Assembly: GCA_000696115.1 (NCBI GenBank)
Contig: JJOH01000025.1
Span: 1-64,000, forward strand
Direction: 5' to 3'
Source of the DNA: Streptomyces olindensis
Lineage (GTDB): Bacteria > Actinomycetota > Actinomycetes > Streptomycetales > Streptomycetaceae
Length of the DNA: 64,000 bases
Part shown: positions 11,538 to 63,999 of the stretch, piece after piece
Numbering within the stretch: position 1 is the stretch's first letter
Layout: each line of letters begins with the position of its first letter
Made by a program: the position numbers and the translations under genes
The notes under the pieces: model-generated
Databases searched by the model: none
What the model was told of the DNA's origin: nothing
What the model saw: only the letters and a program-made list of their open reading frames with translations

Positions 11538-11579
11538 ACCCCGCGCCGTGATACGGTTGTGAACACAACGGCGCGGGGT
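11538..11579 (+). repeat. Inverted repeat spanning the 5' end of tRNA-fMet copy 1
   Basis: ACCCCGCGCCGT (11538-11549) is perfectly complementary to ACGGCGCGGGGT (11568-11579), which covers the tRNA acceptor strand. A second short palindrome, TTGTGAACACAA, lies in the loop at 11557-11568. It may act as a terminator for the upstream gene or a pre-tRNA fold. Confidence 0.5.
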
Positions 11580-11645
11580 GGAGCAGCTCGGTAGCTCGCT
11601 GGGCTCATAACCCAGAGGTCGCAGGTTCAAATCCTGTCCCCGCTA
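11572..11645 (+). tRNA. Initiator tRNA-fMet (CAT), copy 1
   Basis: A 74-base cloverleaf with anticodon CAT at 11606-11608. Initiator hallmarks are visible: the first base of the acceptor stem is unpaired (C1 opposite U72), and three consecutive G-C pairs sit at the bottom of the anticodon stem (CTGGG with CCCAG). CCA is not encoded. It is identical to the copy at 13782. Confidence 0.95.
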
Positions 11646-11677
11646 CTGAAGTCGCGATGTCCGAGTGACGCAGCGGC

Positions 11678-13781: not shown

Positions 13782-13855
13782 CGCGGGGTGGAGCAGCTCG
13801 GTAGCTCGCTGGGCTCATAACCCAGAGGTCGCAGGTTCAAATCCTGTCCCCGCTA
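13782..13855 (+). tRNA. Initiator tRNA-fMet (CAT), copy 2
   Basis: The sequence is identical over all 74 bases to copy 1, including four downstream bases, with anticodon CAT at 13816-13818 and the same initiator features (unpaired position 1-72, three G-C pairs in the anticodon stem). Confidence 0.95.
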
Positions 13856-13862
13856 CTGAAGG

Positions 13863-29583: not shown

Positions 29584-30669
29584 GTGCATGCTTTGTCACA
29601 CGGCACCACATCGGCACCGACCACGATCGCAGTACCACCGTCGCTCCATCTCCCGGTGATCGAGGCGGCGTTTCCCCGGCAACTCCACCCGTATTGGCCG
29701 AAGTGCCAGGAGAAGACCCGGGTCTGGCTCCTGGAAAAACGGCTCATGCCTGCGGACAAGGTGGAGGAATATGCCGACGGCCTGTGCTACACCGACCTCA
29801 TGGCGGGGTACTACATCGGCGCCTCCGACGAGGTGATGCAGGCGATCGCCGACTACAGCGCCTGGTTCTTCGTCTGGGACGACCGCCACGACCGGGACAT
29901 CGTGCACGGCCGTCCGGTCGCCTGGCGGCGGCTGCGGGACCGGCTGCACACGGCCCTCGGCTCCCCCGGGGAGCACCTGCACCACGAGGACCCACTGGTC
30001 GCGGGGTTCGCGGACAGCGTGCTGCGGCTGTACGCCTTCCTGCCGGAGACGTGGAACCTCCGGTTCGCCCGGCACTTCCACGCGGTGATCGAGGCGTACG
30101 ACCGCGAGTTCCACAACCGCACCCATGGAATCGTGCCGACGGTCGACGAATACCTCCGGTTGCGTCGGCTCACTTTCGCGCACTGGATCTGGACGGATCT
30201 GCTGGAGCCGACCGCTGGGTGCGAACTCCCGGACGCGGTGCGGAAACACCCGGCATACCGCAGGGCGGCGCTGCTGAGTCAGGAATTCGCCGCCTGGTAC
30301 AACGACCTCTGCTCGCTCCCCAAGGAATTAGCGGGTGACGAGGTGCACAATCTGGGAATCAGTCTCATCACCCATGAGGGACTGACCCTGGAACAGGCGG
30401 TCGTGGAAGTCAGGCGACGTGTCGAGGAATGCATCACTGATTTCCTCGACAGTGAGCGTGAGGCATTGCGGTTCGCCGACGACCTCGCCGACGGCACCGT
30501 GCGCGGAAAGGAACTGAGCACCGCCGTGCGGGCCTGTCTGAGCAATATGCGGAACTGGTTCAGCTCGGTCTACTGGTTCCACCACGAGTCCGGCCGGTAC
30601 ATGGTCGACAGCTGGGACGACCGGTCCACGCCCCCGTACGTCAACAACGAAGCGGCAGGTGAGAAATGA
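29584..30669 (+). CDS. eizA: Epi-isozizaene synthase (sesquiterpene cyclase)
   Basis: A 361-residue class I terpene cyclase converting farnesyl diphosphate to epi-isozizaene. The Asp-rich motif DDRHD is at residues 99-103 and the NSE metal motif NDLCSLPKE has Asn240, Ser244 and Glu248. Active-site aromatics Phe95, Phe96, Phe198 and Trp203 are all conserved. Length and numbering match the S. coelicolor enzyme exactly. The start GTG/ATG follows a GAGAGGGG site. It overlaps the next P450 gene by four bases. Confidence 0.95.
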
Positions 30670-32036
30670 CCGTCGAGTCTGTGCAGCCTGAAGCACCTCT
30701 GGTTCCGGAACTGCGCGAGCCGCCCCGGGCGGGCGGCGGGATCCCCGTCCTCGGCCACGGCTGGAAGCTGGTGCGCGACCCGCTGGCGTTCATGTCCCGG
30801 CTGCGCGACCACGGCGAGGTGGTCCGCCTGAAGCTCGGGCCGAAGACGGTCCACGCCGTCACCACCCCGGCGCTGACCGGCGCCCTGGCGCTGAGCAACG
30901 ACTTCATCATCGCCGGGCCGCTGTGGGAGTCCCTGGAGGGCCTGCTCGGCAAGGAGGGCGTGGCCACGGCGAACGGCCCGCGGCACCGGCGCCAGCGGCG
31001 CACCATCCAGCCCGCCTTCCGGCTCGACGCCATCCCCGCCTACGGGCCGATCATGGAGGAGGAGGCGCACGCGCTGACCGAGCGCTGGCAGCCCGGCCGG
31101 ACGATCGACTGCACCTCCGAGTCGTTCCGGGTGGCCGTGCGCATCGCGGCCCGCTGCCTGCTGCGCGGCGACTACATGGACGAGCGGGCGGAGCGGCTGT
31201 GCGTCGCGCTCGCCACGGTCTTCCGCGGCATGTACCGGCGGATGGTGATCCCGCTCGGACCGCTGTACCGGCTGCCGCTCCCGGCCAACCGCGAATTCAA
31301 CCGGGCCTTGGCCGATTTGCATCTCCTGGTCGACGAGATCATCGCCGAGCGCCGCGCATCCGGTCAAAAGCCGGACGATTTGCTGACGGCATTGCTGGAG
31401 GCGAAGGACGAGAATGGCGACCCCATCGGGGAACAGGAGATCCACGATCAGGTCGTCGCGATCCTCACCCCCGGCAGCGAAACCGTGGCCTCCACGATCA
31501 TGTGGCTGCTGCATATGCTGGCGGAACACCCTGAACAAGCCGACCGGGTGCGTGACGAAGTCGAAGCCGTCACCGGTGGGCGGCCGGTGGCATTTGCAGA
31601 CGTCCGAGGACTCAGGCACACCAACAATGTCGTCGTCGAGTCCATGCGCTTGAGCCCCGCCGTCTGGATTCTGACGCGCCGGGCGGTACGGGACACGGAA
31701 CTCGGCGGTTACCGCATTCCGGCGGGGGCGGACATCATCTACAGCCCGTACGCGATCCAGCGCGATCCGAAGTCGTACGACCGGCACCTGGAGTTCGACC
31801 CGGACCGCTGGCTTCCGGAGCGGGTCAAGGAGATCCCGAAACACGCCATGAGCCCGTTCAGCACCGGCAACCGCAAGTGCCCGAGCGACCACTTCTCGAT
31901 GGCCCAGCTGACGCTGATCACGGCGGCCCTGGCCACGAAGTACCGCTTCGAGCAGGTGGCGGGTTCGAACGACGGCACGCGCGTCGGCATCACGCTCCGG
32001 CCGCACGAGCTGCTGCTGCGGCCGGTGCCGAGGTGA
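30666..32036 (+). CDS. cyp170A1: Cytochrome P450 CYP170A1-type (albaflavenone synthase)
   Basis: A 456-residue P450 that oxidises epi-isozizaene in two steps via albaflavenol to albaflavenone. The I-helix reads [10 protein letters not shown], the ExxR motif ESMR, and the haem loop [13 protein letters not shown] keeps the Cys ligand but has Ser in place of the last Gly. The DDLLTALLE stretch corresponds to the region linked to moonlighting farnesene synthase activity in S. coelicolor CYP170A1 (from memory). ATG overlaps the cyclase stop, so the pair is translated together. Confidence 0.93.
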
Positions 32037-61014: not shown

Positions 61015-61305
61015 GGAGGGACCGTTTCTGGGATGGCCGGCGGGGACGGGCCACCACGCTAGAACCGGCCCCGGGCGGGCCCCAGAGGCATTACCGACAG
61101 GTTCCCACCGGTTGTCGCCACCCGGCCCTGGCTCCGCCGCGGGCCCGTCGAACGCCGGAACGGGCCCCCTCCTGCCCAGTAGTACGAAGATCCATTCCCG
61201 CTCTTTCGGGTAATAGCACAGCCGCGCTTCCTGCGGAAGGCTTGGGCGTGCACGTCGATGCCCGAGGCATATGGGCGTCGATCACAACCGGGAGGGCAGT
61301 TCTCT

Positions 61306-62712
61306 ATGTCGGTAGGCGAAGAGGTCCGCACGGAGGAGACCAAGCCGCAGCAGAGTCTCGGCACGGCGGCCGCGCGGAACCTGGCCACCACGACCAAGTC
61401 CGTGCCGCAGATGCAGGAGATCAGCTCCCGCTGGCTGCTGCGCATGCTGCCCTGGGTGGACATCCAGGGTGGTACGTACCGGGTGAACCGGCGACTGACG
61501 TTCGCCGTGGGTGACGGCCGGATGACGTTCGTGAAGACCGGCGACCGGGTCGAGATCATCCCCGCGGAGCTGGGCGAACTGCCCGCTCTACGGTCGTACG
61601 AGGACGAGGAGGTGCTCTCCGAGATCGCCCGCCGCTGCGAACAGCGGGAGATCCAGGCCGGGGAGGTGATCGCCTCCTTCGGCAGCCAGTCCGACGAGGT
61701 GTACCTGCTCGCACACGGCAGGGTGGAGAAGATCGGCACGGGCCCGTACGGCGACGATGAGTCGCTCGGAGTCCTCGCCGACGGCGCCTACTTCGGCGAC
61801 GAGGCCCTGCTGAACCAGGACGCCATCTGGGAGTACACCGCCCGCGCGCTCACCGCGTGCACCGTACTCGTGCTGCCCCGCCAGGACTTCGAGCAGATCG
61901 CGGAGCGCTCGGACTCGCTGCGCGAGCACCTGGAGCAGCGCCGCGCGATCCCCCGGCAGCGCTCCAACAAGTACGGCGAAAAGGAGATCGACCTCGCCGC
62001 CGGCCACTCCGGCGAGCCGGACATCCCGCACACGTTCGTCGACTACGAGGCCCGGCCCCGTGAGTACGAACTGAGCGTCGCCCAGACCGTGCTGCGCATC
62101 CACACGCGCGTGGCCGACCTCTACAACCAGCCGATGAACCAGACCGAGCAGCAGATCCGGCTGACGGTCGAGGCGCTGAAGGAGCGCCAGGAACACGAAC
62201 TCATCAACAACCGCGACTTCGGCCTCCTGCACAACTGCGAGTACGACCAGCGGATCCAGCCGCACGACGGCGTGCCCAGCCCGGACGACCTGGACGAGCT
62301 GCTCAGCCGGCGCCGCGGCACCAAGCTGCTCCTCGCCCACCCGCGCGCGATCGCCGCGATCGGCCGTGAGCTCAACAAGCGGGGGCTGGTCCCGGAGACC
62401 ATCGACATGGCCGGCAACCGCATCCCCACCTGGCGCGGCGTGCCGATCTTCCCGTGCAACAAGATCCCGGTGACGGAAGCCCGTACGACGTCGATCATCG
62501 CCATGCGTACCGGCGAGAGCGACCAGGGCGTCATCGGTCTGCGGGCCTCCGGCATCCCGGACGAGATCGAGCCGAGCCTGTCGGTGCGCTTCATGGGCAT
62601 CAACGAACAGGCCATCATCAAGTACCTGGTCACGGCGTACTACTCGGCCGCGGTCCTGGTACCGGACGCGCTCGGCGTCCTGGAGAACGTCGAGATCGGC
62701 CGCTGGCGGTGA
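61306..62712 (+). CDS. eshA: Family 2B encapsulin shell protein with cyclic-nucleotide-binding domain
   Basis: A 468-residue shell protein. The first 90 residues ([32 protein letters not shown]) and the part after residue 225 form the HK97-type fold. A cNMP-binding domain of about 120 residues is inserted at 95-215, with [19 protein letters not shown] and a phosphate-cassette-like [10 protein letters not shown]. The canonical cassette Arg is missing (EYTARALT). S. griseus EshA and other family 2B encapsulins have this layout. ATG 61306 has GGAGG about ten bases upstream. The polyprenyl synthase downstream is its likely cargo. Confidence 0.9.
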
Positions 62713-62823
62713 CGCTTCCGGTACGTCGGCCGTGTCCCCGCCCGGCGGGGCGGGTACACCCCCGGGGTACGCGCCCAGCGGCAGCGGAAGCGCCACCGTC
62801 CGCTCGTTCTCCGAGGCGGTCCC

Positions 62824-63999
62824 ATGGGTGAGTCCCTCACGGATACCGAGTCCAGGACGGAGACGACGGTGCCCGCACCCGGCGGGCGGCGCGTCGCCGA
62901 GCCCCGGCGTGCGGCCGGGGCGCCGGAAAGGCGGGAGCCCATCGAGACGCAGCAGGACGGCCGGCCGGGACCGGCCGAGGGGCACGAGGCGGTCATGCTC
63001 CTGGAGCGGGCCCGGGCGGAGGTCGACCCGGTGCTGCGGGCCGCGGTCGGCTCGCTGCCCGGGCCGATGCGCCGGATCGCGCTCTACCACCTCGGCTGGG
63101 AACGGGAGGACGGAACTCCGGCCGAGGGCGGCTCGGGCAAGGCGATCCGCCCCGCGCTCGTCCTCACCGCCGCGGCCGCCCTCGGCGGACCCGAGGCCCG
63201 GGCGGGGGCGGTCCGGGCGGCCGCGGCGGTGGAGCTGGTCCACAACTTCACGTTGCTGCACGACGACGTGATGGACCGGGACGCCACCCGCCGCCACCGG
63301 CCCACCGCGTGGACCGTGTTCGGCGACGCCGACGCGATCCTCGCCGGGGACGCCCTGCAGGCGCTGGCCCTGCGGCTGCTCGTCGAGGACCCGCATCCGG
63401 CGTCCCCGGCCGCCGCCGCCCGGCTCGCGGACTGCGTGGTCGAACTGTGCGCCGGACAGCACGCCGACACGGCCCTGGAGCGGCGCGGCCCCGGCGAGGT
63501 CACGCTGGACGAGGTGCTCGCCATGGCGGAGGCCAAGACCGGCGCGTTGCTGGGCAGCGCGTGCGCGATCGGCGGGCTGTACGCGGGCGCCGGGGACGCG
63601 GACGTGGCGGCGCTGGACGCGTTCGGCCGGGAGGCCGGGCTCGCCTTCCAGCTCATCGACGACGTCATCGGCATATGGGGCGATCCGAGCCGTACCGGCA
63701 AGCCCGTCGGTGCGGACCTGGCCGCGCGCAAGAAGTCCCTGCCGATCGTCGCGGCCTGCGCCTCCGGCACACCGGCGGCCGCCGAACTCGCCGAACTGTA
63801 CGCACGTCCCCACGACAAGGAGGACCTGGACCACATCGCCCTGACCGTGGAGCGCGCGGGCGGCCGTGACTGGGCCCAGGGCCAGGCGGCCGACCGGATG
63901 GCCCGGGCGATGCAGCAACTGGCGCGCGCGGTGCCGGACCCGGAGGCGGCGGGCGGTCTGCTGGCCCTCGCCGAGTTCGTGACGCGGCGCAGCAGCTGA
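62824..63999 (+). CDS. Polyprenyl diphosphate synthase, likely encapsulin cargo
   Basis: A 391-residue trans-isoprenyl diphosphate synthase. The first Asp-rich motif DDVMD is at 147-151 and the second DDVIG at 279-283. GSGKAIRP binds isopentenyl diphosphate. Phe142, five residues before the first motif, suggests a product of about C20. The first 55 residues are disordered and rich in Pro, Arg and Glu, unusual for this family, and probably act as the cargo-loading region. The gene is 111 bases after the shell gene with GAGGCGG before the ATG. Confidence 0.92.
   Translation: MGESLTDTESRTETTVPAPGGRRVAEPRRAAGAPERREPIETQQDGRPGPAEGHEAVMLLERARAEVDPVLRAAVGSLPGPMRRIALYHLGWEREDGTPAEGGSGKAIRPALVLTAAAALGGPEARAGAVRAAAAVELVHNFTLLHDDVMDRDATRRHRPTAWTVFGDADAILAGDALQALALRLLVEDPHPASPAAAARLADCVVELCAGQHADTALERRGPGEVTLDEVLAMAEAKTGALLGSACAIGGLYAGAGDADVAALDAFGREAGLAFQLIDDVIGIWGDPSRTGKPVGADLAARKKSLPIVAACASGTPAAAELAELYARPHDKEDLDHIALTVERAGGRDWAQGQAADRMARAMQQLARAVPDPEAAGGLLALAEFVTRRSS

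Follow-up and report, generated by a model that had tools for sequence, protein, structure and literature searches.

Within the analysed stretch of DNA (the window, positions 1-64000 of contig C25 in a 9.37 Mb genome of 112 contigs) a family 2B encapsulin shell gene is followed on the same strand by the gene of a trans-prenyl diphosphate synthase (PT). The two genes quite probably constitute a single-shell family 2B PT operon, in which a T=1 shell would enclose an active PT. An earlier note on this DNA had already named the shell gene, a cyclic-nucleotide-type domain inserted into the shell, the synthase gene, and the pairing of the two genes, and all of these are borne out by the searches and comparisons described below. 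The features of the locus are:

61290-61296, plus strand: ribosome-binding-site-like GGGAGGG of the shell gene, largely conserved in an alignment of 27 sequences
61306-62712, plus strand: family 2B encapsulin shell gene, from the ATG at 61306 to the stop codon ending at 62712, 468 residues (NF041163, PF19307, PDB 9bhu)
61306-61323, plus strand: 18-nt block ATGTCGGTAGGCGAAGAG at the shell start, in which every codon position is conserved
61645-61908, plus strand: CRP-type insertion domain of the shell, residues 114-201 (PF00027, 1.5e-18), without the canonical phosphate-binding arginine
61951-62703, plus strand: C-terminal HK97-type (SrpI-like) part of the shell, residues 216-466 (PF19307, 5.1e-137)
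62732-62759, plus strand: inverted repeat that may form a hairpin, GTGT-C-CCCGCCC-N4-GGGCGGG-T-ACAC, directly behind the shell stop codon
62824-63999, plus strand: PT gene, the putative cargo, from the ATG at 62824 to the stop codon ending at 63999, 391 residues (NF041169, AlphaFold2, 3nf2)
62824-62973, plus strand: disordered N-terminal extension of PT, residues 1-50, pLDDT below 50
63262-63276, plus strand: first Asp-rich motif of PT, DDVMD, residues 147-151, with F142 at position -5 (D147, D151, and F142 in 39/39 sequences, D148 in 38/39)
63658-63663, plus strand: second Asp-rich motif of PT, D279-D280 of DDVIGIWGD (39/39)

The PT gene starts 111 nt downstream of the shell gene. The shell is read from the ATG at 61306 and not from the in-frame ATG at 61258 because the GGGAGGG and the highly conserved block both point to the former. 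Upstream of the pair are genes for a DUF6010 protein, a PLP enzyme, and a Na/H exchanger, and downstream follow genes for a GNAT, a TetR, and a RibD-like protein and then for a Pit-type transporter, which was named from its translation. None of these nearest genes has an evident terpenoid function, and the module is therefore taken to consist of two genes. On the operon strand, a promoter and terminator scan gave no site resembling either. The minus strand at positions 61340-61844, which faces the 5' part of the shell gene, matches Rfam RF02735 (Sernc350, an antisense RNA of Saccharopolyspora) with 152.6 bits, for which coding conservation may be the sole cause. Elsewhere in the window, at 11572-11646 and 13782-13856, two tRNA-Met genes that share their anticodon are separated by about 2 kb.

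The shell protein scores 772.6 bits against the 'family 2B encapsulin shell' model NF041163 (cut-off 400), and it is the only match above the cut-off in the whole genome. The HK97 fold, on which the earlier assignment depended, is found by sequence homology as the SrpI-like domain in the C-terminal part. In addition, the protein aligns nearly end to end with the solved chains 9bhu, 9bix, and 9bje (E-values between 5e-201, for 9bhu, and 2.6e-181), being co-linear with 9bhu over residues 8-467. We take 9bix and 9bje to be Enc2 and Enc1 of S. lydicus, respectively, and 9bhu to be the 2-MIB shell of S. griseus, which is tied to a terpene cyclase. The diagnostic shell motif 1 reads RRR, as printed for S. 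lydicus Enc2. The AlphaFold2 model of the shell, built from a shallow alignment, reached a mean pLDDT of only 43.7 and is uninformative on the fold. By analogy with the solved relatives the subunits would be expected to self-assemble into a closed icosahedral particle. In the sections of PMC12407261 devoted to it, the S. lydicus system is described as having two shell genes and being of the xylulose-kinase type, whereas here a single shell gene is combined with PT. The same sections give Enc2 as a T=1 shell whose two-fold pores measure 14 by 60 A and are partly occluded by the insertion domains sitting over them.

The PF00027 domain precedes the HK97-type part, and going by the solved relatives it would occupy the position of the E-loop. 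No other large part of the shell varies as much; the mean identity of the domain is 0.77 compared to 0.91 for residues 241-466 (39 sequences). Within the domain, W175, E176, T178, R180, and T183 are invariant in 39/39 shells. In cyclic-nucleotide-binding domains the canonical phosphate-binding arginine is part of a P-R-S/T-A motif. In the alignment, the corresponding arginine of the cGMP-dependent kinases falls to a gap beside I174/W175 of the shell. The better local matches of the insertion domain include chain 5dyk with its third matched stretch (FGDQYVLNQKQPFKHT), presumably the degenerate, non-binding domain of Plasmodium PKG. Where PMC12407261 deals with 2B insertion domains it reports, itself citing a preprint (its ref. 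35), that they bind no cyclic nucleotide, and it suggests another small-molecule ligand. Because of this reported non-binding and the missing arginine a cyclic-nucleotide gate is unlikely; a different ligand is possible.

PT matches PF00348, as one of five such matches in the genome, and the model NF041169 ('family 2 encapsulin cargo, polyprenyl transferase') with 480.2 bits (cut-off 450). Its AlphaFold2 model is mostly confident (mean pLDDT 82.4), mainly helical, and well folded after residue 50, and the closest solved folds are 3nf2 followed by the GGPP synthase of P. horikoshii, 1wy0. K106, R109, K238, Q276, and K293 are, like D147, D151, D279, and D280, the same in 39/39 sequences. Since the catalytic Asp, Lys, Arg, and Gln residues are conserved, PT should be active, probably as a trans-prenyl diphosphate synthase. 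As a rule, a phenylalanine at position -5 of the DDxxD motif points to a C20 product, and with F142 at this position PT perhaps produces a geranylgeranyl-type chain. The GGPP synthase model of IdsB, NF045549, is not passed by PT (367.8 compared to a cut-off of 475 bits), so that its family does not assign a product length and C20 is a prediction only. IdsB of S. coelicolor, the polyprenyl synthetase with the structure 3nf2, has the same fold and the same DDxxG type of second motif, and a close homologue of it, the likewise DDxxG-type L008, is encoded in this genome. PT differs from IdsB in failing the IdsB model, in passing its own model NF041169, and in having an adjacent shell gene. A further IdsB-like synthase of this genome, L007 (C3), has an open frame with a long Pro/Thr-rich N-terminal stretch; it resides in a genome with one shell gene above the cut-off.

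The linkage of the two genes was followed through loci that were fetched by PT alone. All 30 loci (L011-L040) taken from 186 genomes above the PT cut-off have a shell gene upstream of PT on the same strand, and so do 78 of the best 80 of 466 PT loci (L071-L150). In the two exceptions, L111 and L113, only 350 and 22 bases, respectively, separate the start of the PT match from the contig end. Combined, this amounts to 108 of 110 fetched PT loci, but the loci are not independent, because they are best-scoring matches and closest relatives and because some species are common to both sets. The nearest relative by shell and PT, among the best 80 of 466 loci, is Streptomyces lomondensis with 92% identity in PT and 98.5% in the shell. 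The 246 congeneric genomes pass the PT model in 186 cases and the shell model in 240 cases.

In a class-wide sample of 148 genomes, 17 contain PT at E <= 1e-133, of which seven belong to other genera. The shell gene is beside PT in three of these seven loci (L158, L167, L168), whereby PT stands behind two shell genes in two of the three, and the shell match of L168 ends at the contig end after 134 matched residues. In L165, L169, L170, and L171, from other actinobacterial genera, PT scores above the NF041169 cut-off and there is no shell within 1.5 kb. In the genomes of these loci the shell model does find matches, on other contigs, with no more than a shorter one in G263. Therefore, the 'cargo' label of NF041169 alone is no proof of a shell partner and may over-call. 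A phage collection gave two shell-like matches, in CAKLQH020000001.1 and CAKLQF020000001.1 (329 and 379 kb, annotated mmpI). Both records are named 'Acinetobacter phage MD-2021a' and are perhaps mislabelled bacterial contigs.

The shell-PT pairing as such is already in print in two papers of 2021 (PMC8346489, PMC8049743). In the parts of these papers that concern the pairing, 900 PT operons are counted (PMC8346489), and a polyprenyl diphosphate synthase gene is given as the most frequent neighbour of family 2b shells (PMC8049743). With this number, shell-plus-PT operons belong to the commonest encapsulin systems. The mostly actinobacterial family 2B PT operons outlined there consist of a shell with a CRP-like E-loop insertion and an adjacent prenyl diphosphate synthase, which is the same shell architecture with an adjacent synthase as in the window.

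The encapsulin-associated PTs are characterised in the relevant part of PMC8346489 by a disordered N-terminal domain that is 50 to 100 residues long and lacks a conserved motif, whereas among the loci compared here some shell-adjacent PTs have a short N-terminus only. With start codons called by pattern, 14 of 109 sequences (the window and 108 loci) have a short start of the MTMTSTDA type; 17 of the 109 stayed unclassed, including L073, whose MGESLTA start the pattern did not catch. The space between the shell match and the catalytic domain of PT leaves room for no more than about 20 residues in L158, L167, and L168, as judged for the latter two loci from printed translations. In addition, residues 9-53 diverge similarly at all three codon positions. 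In 19 close sequences (the window and 18 others) the differences at codon positions 1, 2, and 3 are 0.17, 0.19, and 0.19 for residues 9-35 compared to 0.062, 0.049, and 0.193 for residues 54-391. At the level of these comparisons the tail, except for its first residues, appears to be under no visible protein-level constraint. Because of this, and because of the short-tailed PTs beside shells, the tail is a poor candidate for a loading signal, which suggests that a long tail is a lineage feature. The long disordered N-terminus described earlier is thus real in this protein, but the comparison does not support it as a feature of the cargo. Two shorter elements were considered and rejected as signals. 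The P-I-G-T-Q motif near the end of the tail recurs partly, in many but far from all PTs, and is not universal. The first six residues, MGESLT, are conserved, but were dropped as targeting signal because the neighbouring RibD-like gene of the same set is equally conserved at codons 2-6.

At the shell start, 74 of 75 loci have exactly the 18-nt block of the window, without deviation even at third codon positions, and the codons GTA and GAA, with A in the third position, are kept in 76/76 and 75/76 sequences, respectively. The same identity test gave 26/62, 5/43, 4/12, 0/21, 15/38, and 16/20 for six neighbouring genes. The shell counts cover only the shells whose match begins at residue 1 (76 of 81, the window and the best 80 of 466 loci), and for the codon count the match also had to reach residue 464 or more. 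Of the 30 shell loci L041-L070 eight contain the exact block; L056 (G218) and L058 (G129) lack it but nevertheless have PT beside the shell. The block thus seems to mark one clade of shell-PT operons. Its function might lie in translation initiation or in the binding of a protein or an RNA, and its conservation may be new. As an element of a regulon it was rejected: the genome contains a single exact copy, and with up to three mismatches six sites were found compared to six for the reversed control.

The inverted repeat behind the shell gene folds with an MFE of -24.8 kcal/mol and a z of -2.1 in the window. Of six loci folded at this place, three have a z below -2, and L082 and L125 fold otherwise. 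A loose version of the pattern occurs in 55 of 78 loci of L071-L150 (best 80 of 466), in 8 of 30 of L011-L040, and in 4 of 30 of L041-L070. The repeat is conserved by sequence and no covariation support was found for it; because of this and of the two folded loci without the hairpin, it may be either an RNA hairpin or a DNA operator. Attenuation, protection of the mRNA end, and an operator are possible functions. Tail and start block might be joined in a single, rather tentative reading. PT would then be loaded without a long tail, via the folded enzyme or the last about 20 residues before it, and a dedicated nucleotide element at the shell start, GGGAGGG...ATGTCGGTAGGCGAAGAG, acting in the DNA or the mRNA, would fix the output of shell relative to cargo.

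The sesquiterpene cyclase-P450 pair, to which the earlier note had drawn attention at a distance of 31 kb, is present:

29584-30669: epi-isozizaene synthase (735 bits, cut-off 675)
30666-32036: albaflavenone monooxygenase-type P450 (851 bits, cut-off 700), overlapping the synthase gene

Its supposed connection to the shell and PT is not supported. Among 28 of the 246 genomes, all with PT above the cut-off, 16 have a match to the synthase model (E <= 1e-100), in every case upstream of PT on the same strand at 21-38 kb; the other 12 have no match but keep PT. The pair is therefore background synteny, and its position relative to the shell and PT genes, as far as gene order tells, reflects a conserved chromosome order and is not evidence for a pathway link. 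The same order offers a name for the shell. According to the passages on these genes, albaflavenone synthesis in S. coelicolor needs sco5222-5223 (PMC5733532), and eshB is SCO5249, a putative cyclic-nucleotide-binding protein, which like eshA is up-regulated during development (PMC3878966). Because the numbering of SCO5249 near SCO5222-5223 fits the order found here, the gene order with the albaflavenone pair, on its own, suggests the shell as a candidate EshB orthologue; both share the putative cyclic-nucleotide-binding character.

Taken together, we regard it as likely that the locus works as follows. Going by the geometry of the solved relatives, about 60 shell subunits would form a T=1 particle, which would enclose the co-encoded PT. 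IPP and an allylic diphosphate might enter through large two-fold pores like those of the relatives, and PT would convert them to a linear prenyl diphosphate, most probably with a C20 chain. Over the pores would be the CRP-like insertion domains, which might have a ligand that is not a cyclic nucleotide, or no ligand at all.

The encapsulation of PT is an inferred step in this scheme, and we found no paper showing PT inside a 2B shell in the open-licence PMC literature. Shell and PT could instead be co-expressed while PT stays outside, the shell acting alone or holding another protein in a developmental role of the EshB type. This would agree with the developmental up-regulation of eshA and eshB (PMC3878966), with eshA being dispensable for 2-MIB biosynthesis despite its membership in that operon, as stated where PMC6428758 treats this gene, with the unconserved PT tail, and with shells being found in more of the congeneric genomes than PT. 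However, the adjacency in nearly all fetched loci is tight, it recurs in three loci of other genera, in two of them behind two shell genes, and terpene cyclases are listed as encapsulin cargo in the respective part of PMC12407261. Therefore, we consider a PT outside the shell rather unlikely.

Two further explanations concern the insertion domain. Binding of another small molecule, for instance a prenyl phosphate or some different metabolite, which would tune the pore or the enzyme, is a possibility that we regard with reserve: five residues are fixed in a domain that is otherwise the least conserved, and such a ligand has been suggested (PMC12407261, in its remarks on these domains), but the conservation could be structural and the candidate ligand is still putative. 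It is compatible with an enclosed PT as the best explanation. The gate proposed earlier, in which a cyclic nucleotide controls the entry of prenyl substrates and the shell feeds FPP to the nearby sesquiterpene cyclase, is in contrast highly improbable. The PF00027 domain and the strongly conserved W175-R180 would fit to it, as would the insertion domains over the two-fold pores of a relative, at least in part (PMC12407261, structural passages). However, these very pores measure 14 by 60 A and are only partly occluded, cyclic-nucleotide binding is reported to be absent, the domain lacks the phosphate-binding arginine, the cyclase pair belongs to the background synteny, and the genome has four other PF00348 genes.

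With a PT enclosed by its shell as the preferred explanation, the locus represents a clean single-shell example of the common shell-plus-prenyl-synthase operons. The comparison speaks against a long-tail loading signal and against a nucleotide gate, and it shifts the attention to the folded PT domain, the conserved W175-R180 pocket of the shell, and the 18-nt block at the shell start.
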